NCBI RefSeq assembly: GCF_014466955.1 | Contig: NZ_AP023396.1 | Coordinates: 7,316,001-7,380,000, forward strand | DNA: 64,000 bases | Direction of reading: 5' to 3' | Source: Nocardia wallacei | GTDB lineage: Bacteria; Actinomycetota; Actinomycetes; Mycobacteriales; Mycobacteriaceae | Part shown: piece after piece, positions 15,992-20,297 of the stretch | Layout: each line of letters begins with the position of its first letter | Position numbering within the stretch: the stretch's first letter is position 1 | The notes under the pieces: generated by a model | Database searches by the model: none | Seen by the model: the letters and a program-made list of their open reading frames with translations, nothing else | Told to the model about the DNA's origin: nothing | Translations under genes and position numbers: made by a program

Positions 15992-16423
15992 CTACTTCTC
16001 GACGACGCCGATGGCCACGGCGACCGGGGTGTCGGCCTGACTGGCGGCCAGGCACACCAGCTTGGCGGTGCCCAGGGCGACGTTGGGGCTGCCGTCGAAC
16101 TTGGAGCCCGGGTTCTCGGCGAGTATCTGCTCCAGCAGGGCCTTTTCGGCGTCGGTGTCCAGATTCTTGAATTCGCCGCAGGTCGTCTGCGAGGCGGGGC
16201 CGAGGGCGGCGTTGCCCGAACCGGTCGCGGTGGGCGGCGGTTGCGGGGACTCGGACGGGGCGGGGGACGCCGGCGGTGCGGGGCTCGCGGGAGCGGCGGA
16301 GGTGGACGGCGCGTTTCTGCGCAGCCCGGCGGCGTCGGTGCCGGAGTCGTCGTTGCCGCCGCAGGCGGTCAGGCCCAGTGCCAGCGCGCTCAGCACGACG
16401 GCAGTCGCCGAAAGTCGTTTCAT
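15992..16423 (-). CDS. lipoprotein with conserved C-terminal domain
   Basis: 143 residues from ATG 16423. The signal peptide MKRLSATAVVLSALALGLTA is followed by lipobox Cys21 (LGLTAC). Then comes GGNDDSG, a LRRNAPSTSAAP stretch and a Pro/Ser-rich linker. A ~75-residue folded part (CGEFKNLDTDAEKALLEQIL ... VCLAASQADTPVAVAIGV) has two cysteines that could form a disulfide. The longer in-frame version to 16480 lacks a credible signal sequence and is rejected. The gene is between the shorter lipoprotein and the zinc-finger gene, all on the minus strand with ~100-bp gaps. The domain resembles small mycobacterial-type lipoproteins of unknown role. Confidence 0.75.
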   Translation of the reverse strand: MKRLSATAVVLSALALGLTACGGNDDSGTDAAGLRRNAPSTSAAPASPAPPASPAPSESPQPPPTATGSGNAALGPASQTTCGEFKNLDTDAEKALLEQILAENPGSKFDGSPNVALGTAKLVCLAASQADTPVAVAIGVVEK

Positions 16424-16520
16424 AAACGTCCGAAATTCCGTTTGTCGCATGCGCCGGGGGCAGTCCGGCGCGCGTCGCACAGTACCGGGCGCGGCCGCGA
16501 TTGAAAACCCGGTGCGCGGC

Positions 16521-16874
16521 TCAGTGGATCAGCTGCTGCCAGTCGCGGGGCACCCGGTCGCGCGGGCCGGGTGCGGTCTGGTCCTCCGGATGGTGCTGCG
16601 GCGGCGCGAGTTCGGGGCCCTCGCCGTACATCTCCTCGGTGCGGAAGTTCCAGAACCACTCCTCCCCGGGTTCGTAGCTCTGCACGAAGGGGTGCCCGGT
16701 GGCGGCGAAATGCTTGCTGGCGTGCTGTTGCGGCGAGGAGTCGCAGCAACCGACGTGCCCGCACTGCGCGCAGCGCCGCAGGTGTACCCACCAGCCTTGG
16801 GCCGCTTCGCATTCCACGCAGCCCGGCCCGCTGGGCGCCACCGCCGGGTCGATGCCCTCGATCGTTTCGGCCAT
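16521..16874 (-). CDS. UBP-type zinc finger protein
   Basis: 117 residues. A Zn-UBP finger occupies ~18-80: CVEC, then CAQCGHVGCC, then QHASKHFAATGHPF and a conserved WFWNF. Cys and His ligands match the eukaryotic ubiquitin-binding finger of deubiquitinases, although bacteria of this kind lack ubiquitin. In prokaryotes the domain occurs as a stand-alone protein beside redox or signalling genes. ATG 16874 overlaps the stop of the histidine kinase (GTGATGG), so it is translationally coupled as third gene of that operon. It probably serves as a protein-protein interaction partner of the kinase or the flavoprotein; target unknown. Confidence 0.88.
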   Translation of the reverse strand: MAETIEGIDPAVAPSGPGCVECEAAQGWWVHLRRCAQCGHVGCCDSSPQQHASKHFAATGHPFVQSYEPGEEWFWNFRTEEMYGEGPELAPPQHHPEDQTAPGPRDRVPRDWQQLIH

Positions 16875-18346
16875 CACTCACCTCCGGTATCGGTTCGTAC
16901 GACTGAACTTTCGTCGGCGGCGGCCGGTCGCAGCGGCAGCCGCACGATGAAGCGGGTGTCGCCGGGGACCGACTCGACGCGGATGTCGCCGCCGTGTTTC
17001 TTCACCACGATCCGGAACGAGATGTCCAGCCCCAGACCGGTTCCCTCCCCGACCGGCTTGGTGGTGAAGAACGGTTCGAAGATCCGGTTGCGGATATCGT
17101 CCGGCACGCCGGGGCCGGTGTCGCCGATCTCCACCGCGGCGCACTCGTTCTCGCGGTAGGTGCGCACGGTGAGGGTGCCCGCACCGGCCATCGCGCCGAC
17201 CGCGTTGTCGATCAGATTGGTCCACACCTGGTTCAATTCCGCTGCGTAACACGGGACTTCGGGCAAGGTGCGGTCGTAGTCCTTGACGATCGCGATGCCG
17301 TCTCCGATCTTGCGGGCCAGCATCACCAGCGTGCTGTCGAGCAGTTCGTGGATGTCGACCACCTGGAACGGCGCCCGGTCCATCTGCGAGTACTGCTTGG
17401 CGGCGTTGACCAGCGACGAGATCCGCACGGTGGAGTCGGTGATCTCGTTCATCAGCAGCTCGGTCTCGACCGTGTAGTTGAGCCAGCGGATCGCGCCCTC
17501 GAAGACCCCGCTGTCGGCGCCCTCCAGCGTGCCGGCGACCTTCTCCAGCCAGTCGGTGTCGAAGCCCGCCTGCACGAAGGTCGGTGCGATGTCCCAGCCG
17601 TTGGCGATGCCGTGGTCGGTGAGCCAGTCGCCGAGTTCGTCCTCGCGGTCGGCGGCCTCGAGCGTGGTCAGCGTCGGGGCCTTTGCGACCTGGGTGGCCG
17701 CCTCCTCCTGCAACTGCACCAGCGCTTCCAGCGCGGACGAGTCGAACTTGCCGTGCGCCATCATCTTCAGCTTGTGCCGCATCCCGGCGACCCGGTCGCG
17801 CAGCGAGGAGGTGGCGCGCACCGCGGCGGCCGCGGGGTTGTTCAGCTCGTGGGTCAGGCCCGCCGAGAGCGAACCGAGGGCCAGCAGTCGCTCGCGCTGG
17901 CCGATGATCTCGTTGGCGTTGCGGTTGCCGAAGAACACCCCTTCGAGCAGGTGCAGCGCCATCGGGAACCACTCCTGCATCATGCGGGCGAAGGTGCCGG
18001 CGTCGAGCACGAAGAATTTCGACGGCCTGGTCACCGTGAGCGTGCCGGTGTAGTTCTGCTCGGCCTTGTCACCCATGTAGGCGGTCCAGGCTCCCGCGTA
18101 GGAGCCGCGGTGGTCGGTGCGCACCAGCTCGATCTCCTCGCCGGCGGACAGCTTGGTCAGCACGACTTCGCCGTCCATCAGCACGTAGAAGCAGGTCGCC
18201 GCGTCGCCCTCGCGGAACACCAGCCCGGGTTCGAACAGCTCCACGCGCCCGTCGCGGCACAGCCATGCCAGCTGGTCGTCGTCGAGCTTCTCGAACAGGA
18301 ACAGCGTCCGGAGCTCGTCCGGGTCGCAGATCACCTGGGTGCCCAT
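16874..18346 (-). CDS. cyclic-nucleotide-binding-domain sensor histidine kinase
   Basis: 490 residues without membrane segments. A cNMP-binding fold spans ~10-125 (FEPGLVFREGDAATCFYVLM is the Gly-rich turn). The dimerisation/phosphoacceptor box is LGSLSAGLTHELNNP with His166. The HATPase_c domain follows from ~340 to the end, with NLIDNAVGAM (N box), DTGPGVP (G1) and GEGTGLGL (G2). It should autophosphorylate in the cytosol in response to a bound ligand; whether that is cAMP is untested. ATG 18346 has AGGAGG 8 nt upstream, which lies across the end of the preceding receiver-flavoprotein gene, so the pair is coupled. The likely phosphate acceptor is that protein's receiver domain. Confidence 0.9.
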   Translation of the reverse strand: MGTQVICDPDELRTLFLFEKLDDDQLAWLCRDGRVELFEPGLVFREGDAATCFYVLMDGEVVLTKLSAGEEIELVRTDHRGSYAGAWTAYMGDKAEQNYTGTLTVTRPSKFFVLDAGTFARMMQEWFPMALHLLEGVFFGNRNANEIIGQRERLLALGSLSAGLTHELNNPAAAAVRATSSLRDRVAGMRHKLKMMAHGKFDSSALEALVQLQEEAATQVAKAPTLTTLEAADREDELGDWLTDHGIANGWDIAPTFVQAGFDTDWLEKVAGTLEGADSGVFEGAIRWLNYTVETELLMNEITDSTVRISSLVNAAKQYSQMDRAPFQVVDIHELLDSTLVMLARKIGDGIAIVKDYDRTLPEVPCYAAELNQVWTNLIDNAVGAMAGAGTLTVRTYRENECAAVEIGDTGPGVPDDIRNRIFEPFFTTKPVGEGTGLGLDISFRIVVKKHGGDIRVESVPGDTRFIVRLPLRPAAADESSVVRTDTGGE

Positions 18347-18358
18347 CCGGCACACCTC

Positions 18359-20032
18359 CTACTGTTTCGCGATGTATCGGTGGACGAGCATGACCGCCAT
18401 CGCGCCCTCGCCCACGGCGGACGCGACTCGCTTCGCCGACTCCGAACGCACATCGCCGGCCACGAAAACCCCGGGGACGCTGGTCTCGAGGTGGTGCGGC
18501 GGCCGCGGCAGTTCCCATCCGGCCGGACGATCGCCGTCGACCAGCAGGTCCGGTCCGGCCAGCACATAGCCCGCCTCGTCCCGCTCGACCAGGCCGTCGA
18601 GCCAGTCGGTCTCGGGTGCGGCGCCGATGAACAGGAACAACCGCTCGGCCTCCACCTTTTCTTCCGTGCCGGTGGCGTTGTTGCGCAGCACGATCCGCTC
18701 CAGGTGATCGTCACCGTCGGCGGCGACCACCTCCGTGCAGGTGTGCACCTTGATGTTGGGTATCTGCTGGATCTGCTGAATCAGGTAGTGCGACATCGAG
18801 TTGTCGAGCGAGTCACCCCGCACCAGGATGTGCACGGTCCGCGCGTTGCGCGACAGGAACACCGCGGCCTGGCCCGCGGAATTCGCGCCGCCGACGATGT
18901 AGATTTCGCGGTCGGCGCAATCGGCGGCCTCCGTCATCGCCGAGCCGTAGTACACGCCGCGCCCGGTGAAGTCGTCCACGCCCGGGGCCGGATGATGGCG
19001 ATAGTTGACGCCCGTGGCGATCAGCACCGAGTGCGCCGCGACCGACTCGCCGTCGTCGAACCGGACCACCCGGGCCGAACCGCACACCTCGAGGCCGACC
19101 ACCCGGCGCGCGGTGATCAGCTCGGCCCCGAACTTGACCGCCTGCCTTCGAGCCCGGTCGGCCAGCTGTGCGCCGGACAACCCGTCGGGGAAGCCCAGGT
19201 AGTTCTCGATGCGGGAACTCTGACCGGCCTGCCCGCCGGTGGCGGTGCGCTCTACCAGCACCGTCCGCAGCCCCTCGGACGCTCCGTATACCGCGGCGCC
19301 GAGACCGGCCGGGCCGCCACCGACCACGATGAGGTCGTAGAAGTCGCCGGTGGGGTCGGTATTGAGGCCCACGCTGCCGGCCAGTTCGCTGTCGCTGGGG
19401 GCGATCAGCGCCTGCCCGGCGGCGTCGATCACGACGGGGCACTGGTCCTGGGTGGCGCCCGCGGCCTCGAGCAGCCGCGCGCCCTCCGGCTCGTCGGCCA
19501 GATACCAGCGGTAGGGCAGCTGGTTGCGGGCGAGGAATTCGCGCACTTCCGAACAGCGGGCGGACCAGCGGTGACCGACCACCTTGGTCTCGTGCACCGG
19601 GCGATGGTCGTCGCCGCGCCAGGCCTCGAGCAGCGCGTCGATCACCGGGTACAGCTTCTCCTCCGGCGGATCCCACGGCTTGAGCAGATAGTGGTCGAGA
19701 TCGATGACATTGATCGCCTCGATCGCGGCATTGGTGTCGGCGTACGCGGTCAGCAGCACCCGGCGCGCGTACGGGTGCAGATCCATCGCCTGTTCCAGGA
19801 ATTCGATACCGTCCATCCCCGGCATCCGGTAATCGGCGATCAACACCGCGACGGGCTGACCCCGGAGTTTCATCTCGCGCAGTGCCTCGAGCGCCGCCGC
19901 ACCCGATTCGGCGCGCAGAATCCGATAATCCGCCCCGTAGCGGCGTCGCAAGTCGCGGACCACGGCCCGGGAGACGCCCGGATCGTCGTCGACGCTCAGG
20001 ATCGCCGGTTTGGCGACAGCTGGTGAAGTCAC
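18359..20032 (-). CDS. response-regulator receiver / glutaredoxin-like / thioredoxin-reductase-like fusion
   Basis: 557 residues in three parts. 1-125 is a receiver domain: acidic pair DDD 15-17, phospho-acceptor Asp67 in DYRMPG, Thr95 and Lys118. About 148-225 is a thioredoxin/glutaredoxin-like domain (GHRWSARCSEVREFLARN) with a single cysteine where a CxxC would be. 232-557 is a TrxR-type flavoprotein with VVGGGPAGLG for FAD and VGGANSAGQA for NADPH. The canonical CxxC before the NADPH motif is missing (VYYGSAMTEA stands there), so it cannot be an ordinary thioredoxin reductase. It heads an operon with a cNMP-binding kinase and a UBP zinc finger. The output appears to be redox enzymology rather than DNA binding. 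Confidence 0.88.
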   Translation of the reverse strand: MTSPAVAKPAILSVDDDPGVSRAVVRDLRRRYGADYRILRAESGAAALEALREMKLRGQPVAVLIADYRMPGMDGIEFLEQAMDLHPYARRVLLTAYADTNAAIEAINVIDLDHYLLKPWDPPEEKLYPVIDALLEAWRGDDHRPVHETKVVGHRWSARCSEVREFLARNQLPYRWYLADEPEGARLLEAAGATQDQCPVVIDAAGQALIAPSDSELAGSVGLNTDPTGDFYDLIVVGGGPAGLGAAVYGASEGLRTVLVERTATGGQAGQSSRIENYLGFPDGLSGAQLADRARRQAVKFGAELITARRVVGLEVCGSARVVRFDDGESVAAHSVLIATGVNYRHHPAPGVDDFTGRGVYYGSAMTEAADCADREIYIVGGANSAGQAAVFLSRNARTVHILVRGDSLDNSMSHYLIQQIQQIPNIKVHTCTEVVAADGDDHLERIVLRNNATGTEEKVEAERLFLFIGAAPETDWLDGLVERDEAGYVLAGPDLLVDGDRPAGWELPRPPHHLETSVPGVFVAGDVRSESAKRVASAVGEGAMAVMLVHRYIAKQ

Positions 20033-20099
20033 ATCGAAAGTATGGGCGTCGATGCGAGCCCGCGCGCCCCCCGGTGGGAGATCCGGCCCCCTAGTTCGC

Positions 20100-20297
20100 T
20101 CACAGCCGATGTTGCTGGACCAGGTCCAGCTCCGTCGGAGTCAGCAATCGCTCCAGTCTTTCCTCGCGCTCGGCGGCGCGACGCCTGGAACTCTTACCAC
20201 CAGTCCCCGCCCTCGCGGTGATCTCTTCCGAATCGGAAAGCGGCAGTAGCGGAACGGAATCCGCCTGACCACGGTGGAGGGGAAAGCGCAGTTTCAC
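20100..20297 (-). CDS. possible small protein
   Basis: 65 codons from GTG 20297, with GAGGTGAT positioned about 5 nt upstream, the best reason to consider it. The product is Arg/Glu-rich with a predicted charged helix (RRRAAEREERLERLLTPTELD). Codon third positions are less G/C-biased than neighbouring genes. It lies about 70 bp upstream of the receiver-flavoprotein gene on the same strand. No family recognised; it could be spurious. Confidence 0.3.
   Translation of the reverse strand: MKLRFPLHRGQADSVPLLPLSDSEEITARAGTGGKSSRRRAAEREERLERLLTPTELDLVQQHRL

Follow-up and report, generated by a model that had tools for sequence, protein, structure and literature searches.

A receiver-flavoprotein fusion without redox thiol pairs in a recurrent actinobacterial gene trio with a histidine kinase and a UBP-type zinc finger

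Introduction

Response regulators whose output runs through a redox enzyme and not through DNA are considered rare. Here we describe a gene trio of Nocardia wallacei, located in a 64,000-nucleotide stretch of contig NZ_AP023396.1 (RefSeq assembly GCF_014466955.1, positions 7,316,001 to 7,380,000), hereafter the window, whose own numbering is used throughout. Three minus-strand frames in the list of open reading frames encode proteins of 557, 493 and 118 amino acids: a fusion of receiver, glutaredoxin (Grx)-like and thioredoxin reductase (TrxR)-like parts (Pfam Response_reg and Pyr_redox_2), a histidine kinase with a cyclic nucleotide (cNMP)-binding fold (cNMP_binding and HATPase_c), and a zinc finger of the UBP type (zf-UBP). 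An earlier note, made from the letters of the window, had singled them out as a redox-signalling operon, and the observation proved real. The trio is a recurrent actinobacterial module, in which the family kinase accompanies fusions that keep the phospho-acceptor aspartate and the flavoprotein body lacks both thiol pairs of related Grx-TrxR fusions.

Samples and searches

Relatives of the fusion were collected from genome contigs; at least 535 of 591 stretches encode one, and the best 80 were retained as the close set, whose loci are near relatives of the window and so not independent observations. The phylum sample comprised 246 genomes spread evenly over the phylum, leaving out the 36 weakest fusion rows (below about 7e-90), which were broken pieces, Grx-TrxR matches and TrxR matches. 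The own-family sample comprised 121 genomes, 47 with a fusion orthologue and 74 without.

The fusion was aligned in a wide set of 60 rows and a close set of 81, the kinase in a wide set of 57-58 and a close set of 80, and the UBP finger in 193 rows. Kinase linkage was assessed by searching with five kinases of the family (E up to 1e-8) at the 119 loci whose fusion match begins within the first 60 residues. The UBP ligand pattern was scanned for at 153 loci, yielding 136 matches. The tree of the reductase part has 48 rows, not including locus L122, and is midpoint rooted. Flanking genes were grouped with a gene caller that also took antisense frames, making its counts for the trio genes too low.

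Conservation of the trio

The earlier note had named a neighbourhood search as a test of its proposal. In the close set the kinase lies directly downstream of the fusion at 79 of 80 loci, and the order fusion-kinase-UBP is found on one strand at 71, which excludes the outcome that the trio is not conserved. A stricter recount gives 70, losing locus L093, whose two alignments overlap by 73 bases. Eight of the nine close loci outside this order have no UBP match, and the ninth (L051) has a divergent UBP on the opposite strand. One locus, L099, is interrupted by a contig end.

Further afield, four relatives at 49-55% identity have the UBP gene about 1.5 kb downstream of the fusion with a family kinase between. 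Among phylum-sample matches that start in the receiver, 34 reach at least 49% identity, and 11 of them have a UBP gene within 6 kb: in nine it comes after the kinase, about 1.5 kb downstream of the fusion, G097 has one to either side, and in G177 it lies immediately upstream. At 40-48% identity the count is 1 of 28, and for receiver-less forms it is 2 of 11. UBP is present in 40 of 49 genomes with the fusion family vs 16 of 197 without, as raw counts uncorrected for ancestry and genome size (41/51 vs 15/195 if G141 and G218, which probably hold the fusion in pieces, are counted).

Within the own-family sample, 30 of the 47 orthologues (at least 60% identity) have a UBP gene within 5 kb, two of them on the other strand and one next to a truncated fusion. 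UBP is also near nine of ten receiver-less forms and none of 16 forms at 40-43% identity. A UBP of the long type occurs in 41 of the 47 genomes with a fusion orthologue vs 20 of the 74 without. UBP is a strong, common companion of the fusion/kinase pair, not an obligatory one, because those 20 genomes carry it with no fusion orthologue.

Receiver and kinase

Receiver and flavoprotein domains share one frame, as the earlier note had it, and the phosphorylation residues of the receiver are intact. The Asp67 column holds aspartate in 57 of 60 wide rows, with three gaps, and D15, D16, T95 and K118 are retained in 57-58 rows. The kinase, proposed as the likely partner of this receiver, adjoins it and is soluble, with no strongly hydrophobic 19-residue stretch. 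Its H box, N box and G boxes are represented by H169, N384, D412 and G414 in all 58 rows, and the model places an insertion of roughly 80-95 residues in its hairpin.

Fusions that keep Asp67 have a family kinase within 1 kb in 108 of 111 cases; for fusions without Asp67 the count is zero of eight, within the 1.3-4.8 kb examined on each side. In the three exceptions the kinase lies farther off (3.9 kb at L108, 2.6 kb at L120) or the contig ends (L144). Most of the 111 come from the close set; among the phylum-sample loci L125-L153 only L144 misses. Because the kinase adjoins Asp67 fusions and is not found near those without it, the pattern supports signalling from the kinase through Asp67. It is our best evidence for that route and is evidence of gene linkage.

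At L193 and L207-L213 the receiver of the fusion is degenerate and no family kinase was found close by; at L193 a UBP gene lies just upstream.

The flavoprotein body

Pyr_redox_2 and the fold match place Rossmann domains for flavin adenine dinucleotide (FAD) and NAD(P)H in the C-terminal part, and the FAD and dinucleotide motifs are nearly invariant across fusion relatives. The CxxC pair of thioredoxin reductases, noted earlier as missing from the window, is indeed absent from all 60 wide and all 81 close rows, its first place being G or A in 60/60 and G in 81/81.

In the middle domain the model shows strands and helices in a thioredoxin-like order, which fits the label glutaredoxin-like; a Pfam search of the domain gave no match, and the Cys pair is gone. 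The window reads S157-A-R-C160 there. Both cysteines of the CPxC site occur in 0/60 rows, and the second place is Ser in 73 and Cys160 in eight of the 81 close rows; Pro199 is invariant (60/60). A hidden redox pair, which the earlier note had held up against its own reading, is not a family feature: the candidate Cys160/Cys198 is limited to the window and four close Nocardia rows (5/81). NADPH dependence, also assumed there, is uncertain. R405 belongs to the Arg motif that we take to bind the 2'-phosphate of NADPH and is invariant (60/60), the only residue of that motif to be so.

Thioredoxin reductase is the best family score, at 225 bits on TIGR01292 vs an equivalog cut-off of 343.45. The YpdA/Bdr model TIGR04018 is matched much more weakly (58.8 bits vs 339.9), and the AhpF model scores 157.3 bits vs 502.9, with thiol pairs absent in both parts. 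The N. wallacei genome has one fusion, 94% identical to that of N. mexicana, 93% to that of N. transvalensis and 96% to one N. wallacei protein (residues 146-557); the next best match in the genome, 34% identical and carrying CATC, is a thioredoxin reductase.

The fusion model (mean pLDDT 86.8, pTM 0.68) fits Lactococcus lactis TrxR in the flavin-reducing state (5mh4; TM 0.93, root-mean-square deviation 2.0) and less well in the flavin-oxidising state (5mjk; TM 0.62, deviation 8.3). We treat this predicted domain arrangement as weak evidence.

Ten phylum-sample proteins of 401-448 amino acids (L194-L203) have a glutaredoxin + reductase layout, with CxxC in the reductase of all ten and in the glutaredoxin part of nine; the one tested matches Pfam Glutaredoxin. 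They are likely self-contained NADPH-glutaredoxin systems. In the tree a branch with 100/100 support splits 34 CxxC-less from 14 CxxC forms. The 34 comprise 16 with a receiver, eight with a cNMP domain and ten others, eight of these with a degenerate receiver. Grx-TrxR fusions with both thiol pairs are the nearest outgroup of the CxxC-less family; since the tree is midpoint rooted, the direction of change is only inferred.

We also considered a relay between Cys372 of the fusion and Cys45 of the UBP finger as a fixed feature and dropped it, because four distant fusions beside a UBP gene (L148, L149, L152 and L153) have no Cys372.

The sensor domain of the kinase

The cNMP_binding profile is matched at 31.8 bits, just above its cut-off of 27.5. 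A cyclic-nucleotide signal, as the earlier note proposed, is not supported in the window's clade, whose kinases lack the phosphate-binding motif and have conserved cysteines. A simple pattern for the cyclic-phosphate cassette, built on what we take to be its Arg-containing motif, matches five of 57 kinases, all distant, and the window is not among them; two of the five carry Cys33 and lack Cys10. Of the 80 close-set kinases, 79 have Cys10, 79 have Cys33 and 75 have Cys55. The first two, with Cys10 searched for over a few neighbouring columns, go together: 79 kinases have both and one has neither. Among the wider 57, both occur in 39, one in three and none in 15.

From these patterns, cyclic nucleotide sensing may be ancestral or valid in distant trios, and we do not predict it for the window. 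Candidates for the chemistry of sensing are a disulfide, zinc, an iron-sulfur centre or haem. The matches listed from a structure search with the kinase model lie on the kinase core and are uninformative on the sensor domain.

The UBP finger

The UBP protein of the window scores 49.4 bits on zf-UBP (cut-off 22.7), and what we take to be its zinc ligands, C20, C23, C36, C39, C44, H52, H56 and H62, are retained in 192-193 of 193 rows. The best PDB match, 2ida (92.5 bits over residues 8-92), shares its Cys-Cys-Asp motif; that entry is named 'Hypothetical protein' and states no function.

The two residues after Cys44 are Cys-Asp in 192/193 rows, with one gap. In the pattern scan the extra Cys is present in 136/136 matches, followed by Asp in 131, Glu in three and Asn in two. 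The position of the tail-binding Arg is filled by Asp46 (192/193) in the USP16 register or by His41 (190/193) in the USP5 register. In the accessible text of one study (PMC10424181), R1155 of HDAC6 touches the carboxylate of the ligand, and R84 of USP16 is regarded as the equivalent residue; the Arg in our USP16 alignment is presumably R84. Because neither register has an Arg at this position, eukaryotic-type reading of a ubiquitin tail is unlikely. The earlier label of a ubiquitin-binding-type finger stands for profile and zinc ligands, and is unlikely to hold for the ligand it suggests.

UBP fingers were also seen in other settings. At L167:4217-6166, in the window's own genome, and at L173:4052-5914 the finger forms the C terminus of a Na+/H+ exchanger (Pfam) and has the same Cys-Cys-Asp motif. 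At L160:3984-6829 a long-type orphan UBP lies beside frames labelled AhpF-like and AhpC-like by sequence resemblance.

Sister form and known systems

One close parallel is a 'thioredoxin-disulfide reductase' of Rhodococcus and Nocardia that shares the Grx-like/CxxC-less body and an adjoining UBP gene. It differs in that a cNMP domain replaces the receiver, no family kinase was found beside it in L174-L182, and it often sits in a chaperone operon. Seven of the nine Nocardiaceae loci L174-L182 have the order DnaJ-CbpM-ClpB-thioredoxin-UBP-cNMP/TrxR, as does a Rhodococcus plasmid locus (L119), whose thioredoxin scores just below the cut-off of the Trx2 zinc-ribbon model; the remaining two have UBP and flavoprotein only. 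L186 has chaperones, thioredoxin and flavoprotein without UBP, and the other loci in this comparison have no chaperones. Because the sister form sits in ClpB/DnaJ/thioredoxin operons, the role of the trio is, by analogy, probably related to protein quality or thiol stress.

Response regulators that join a receiver to thioredoxin reductase have the same domain order as the fusion. Some Nocardia homologues are named 'fused response regulator/thioredoxin-disulfide reductase' at NCBI and most others 'FAD-dependent oxidoreductase'; the former name implies a disulfide reductase, whereas the fusion and all 60 aligned rows have no CxxC. An archaeal two-component census, in its accessible part, mentions a Mycobacterium-like combination of receiver and thioredoxin reductase (PMC5847659). 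Low-Mr thioredoxin reductases and Grx-TrxR fusions share the FAD and NAD(P)H domains, and L194-L203 the wider layout; the fusion differs in the absence of both CxxC pairs, the gain of a signalling domain and an altered dinucleotide phosphate motif. TrxR-like ferredoxin/flavodoxin reductases also lack CxxC, according to the accessible text of PMC10294844, but match much more weakly: the best PDB chain named ferredoxin-NADP reductase reaches 4e-17 vs 3e-46 for TrxR.

Judging by titles and the opening lines of abstracts, no functional study of the trio was found in the open literature (subscription journals lay mostly outside the search), and the accessible part of a review of Deinococcus thiol reductases (PMC8945050) held nothing relevant. 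The layout is already recorded in database and census, and the trio is a variant of known parts. As far as that search goes, the absence of the redox pairs, the way the family relates to Grx-TrxR fusions, the cysteine sensor, the natural control that links receiver and kinase, and the change in the UBP pocket have not been described before.

Gene layout and neighbouring frames

The earlier description of three overlapping genes applies to kinase and UBP, which overlap by one or four bases depending on the UBP start (the ATG at 16874 is likelier). Fusion and kinase are separated by three or 12 bases, depending on the kinase start, for which the ATG at 18346 behind AGGAGG is likelier. A -10-like TACTTT lies four bases upstream of the fusion's GTG codon and suggests a leaderless transcript; some relatives have the words CATACG or CATACT upstream of the start. 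A consensus promoter scan found no promoters, and a terminator scan found two (1.6 expected), both on the plus strand.

Frames similar to the 65-aa frame upstream, with an ERLERLLTPxELDLV-like end, occur at 13 of 80 loci, in Nocardia, Antrihabitans and Rhodococcus/Rhodococcoides. The group of frames at the place of the downstream lipoprotein-like frame occurs at seven of 80, all Nocardia. Among the top 22 flanking-gene groups listed, the largest other than antisense frames covers 21 of 80 loci.

Table 1. Features of the trio and its surroundings, in window coordinates
Feature	Position	Strand	Basis or remark
Fusion gene, 557 aa: receiver, glutaredoxin-like and thioredoxin-reductase-like parts	18359..20032	-	Open reading frame, Pfam, model
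Receiver domain, residues 10-137	19622..20005	-	Pfam Response_reg 11-123, model
Asp67, phospho-acceptor position	19832..19834	-	Alignment
Glutaredoxin-like domain without Cys pair, residues 147-223	19364..19594	-	Model secondary structure; CPDC or a like motif in aligned Grx-TrxR relatives
Thioredoxin-reductase-like FAD/NAD(P)H part, residues 230-557	18362..19345	-	Pfam Pyr_redox_2, PDB matches
G363-S-A-M366 replacing CxxC	18935..18946	-	Alignments
Cys372	18917..18919	-	81/81 close rows (only invariant Cys there), 52/60 wide rows
Histidine kinase gene, 493 aa	16874..18355	-	Open reading frame, Pfam
cNMP-fold sensor domain with Cys10, Cys33, Cys55	17972..18328	-	Pfam, alignment, model
His169, predicted phosphorylated His of the H box	17849..17851	-	Alignment, 58/58
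Putative helical insertion in dimerisation/phosphotransfer hairpin, about residues 186-281	17513..17800	-	Model
HATPase_c domain, residues 373-476	16928..17239	-	Pfam
UBP-type zinc finger gene, 118 aa	16521..16877	-	Open reading frame, Pfam, PDB match
Cys45-Asp46, where USP16 has Gly-Arg (ubiquitin-tail pocket)	16740..16745	-	Alignment, pattern scan
Possible -10 element TACTTT	20037..20042	-	Sequence
65-aa frame directly upstream of fusion	20100-20297	-	No Pfam match
Lipoprotein-like frame downstream of UBP	15992-16480	-	No Pfam match

Discussion

We see about an even chance that the trio is a two-component system whose effector, an NAD(P)H-flavin redox protein gated by phosphorylation, serves in stress, with the UBP protein as its likely partner. 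Through its cNMP-fold domain with conserved cysteines, the soluble kinase would respond to a signal inside the cell, of which thiol redox state or a metal is the likeliest. Phosphate would pass from His169 to Asp67 of the fusion, a step that sequence and gene linkage support, and phosphorylation would shift the receiver on the glutaredoxin-like/TrxR-like body and gate electron flow from NAD(P)H to FAD. Because both thiol pairs of related Grx-TrxR fusions are gone, the flavin would hand its electrons to something other than a dithiol relay, and the UBP protein would be a likely adaptor or acceptor.

Several points weigh against this proposal. The counts for co-occurrence of UBP and fusion take no account of shared ancestry or genome size, 17 of the 47 own-family orthologues have no UBP within 5 kb, and UBP often occurs in other places, by itself or attached to Na+/H+ exchangers. 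The outgroup trios L147 and L152 have neither Cys10 nor Cys33, so the cysteine sensor does not extend to every trio. Only the model shows the flavin-reducing arrangement, and it also fits, within about 3 Å, at least five further TrxR entries with no state named in the title. Of nine known regulator and sigma motifs sought upstream, none fell outside the range of shuffles.

The UBP gene might be merely a frequent neighbour with an unrelated role, which is compatible with our reading of the other two genes and which we consider possible, if doubtful. Its occurrence on exchangers and in own-family genomes with no fusion orthologue, the orthologues with none nearby, and the Deinococcus, Caballeronia and Nostoc loci (L123, L121 and L120) with no UBP ligand pattern in 11.6-11.7 kb all favour such independence; its place behind the kinase is nevertheless kept in distant trios, the kinase stop overlaps the UBP start, and UBP adjoins most receiver-less sister forms in the own-family sample (but few in the phylum sample). 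Alternatively, the fusion could be a pseudo-enzyme that binds FAD and NAD(P)H as a redox gauge, with feedback on the kinase or a partner and no useful reduction. Both redox pairs are absent in forms with signalling domains and present in those without, the cofactor motifs are nearly invariant although no electron-accepting pair remains, and natural versions with a degenerate receiver exist; the near-invariant Cys372 and the flavin-reducing model arrangement, both weak, suggest that chemistry is kept, and on balance we think a pseudo-enzyme possible but less likely than not. It is very improbable that the fusion, in keeping with its database name, is a standard reductase of thioredoxin or glutaredoxin whose thiol pair has moved elsewhere: TrxR is the best family score and Cys160 could pair with Cys198 in five Nocardia rows, but that score falls well below the curated cut-off and neither original pair occurs in any of the 60 rows.

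Actinobacteria have Pup, and the UBP fold and zinc ligands are kept, so that the finger might read the C-terminal tail of such a ubiquitin-like protein and connect the system with proteasomal turnover. We give this hardly any credence: no Arg occupies the tail-binding position in either register, the residue after the extra Cys is Asp, Glu or Asn in every match, and in HDAC6 the contact to the ligand carboxylate is made by R1155 (PMC10424181, accessible text). A more far-reaching idea, rather improbable in our estimate, is that bacterial UBP fingers are thiol-redox partners and not ubiquitin readers. The invariant extra Cys, next to an acidic residue, would exchange electrons with TrxR-like flavoproteins that lack CxxC, and control would lie with a cysteine-sensing kinase in one branch and a ClpB/DnaJ operon in the other. 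Such a flavin-to-zinc-finger redox relay, if true, would be new and would serve protein quality control.

The name thioredoxin-disulfide reductase, as used in a database, is probably a misnomer for the fusion family. The conserved system allows a direct test of the effect of phosphorylation on flavin chemistry, and bacterial UBP fingers gain a partner to test.

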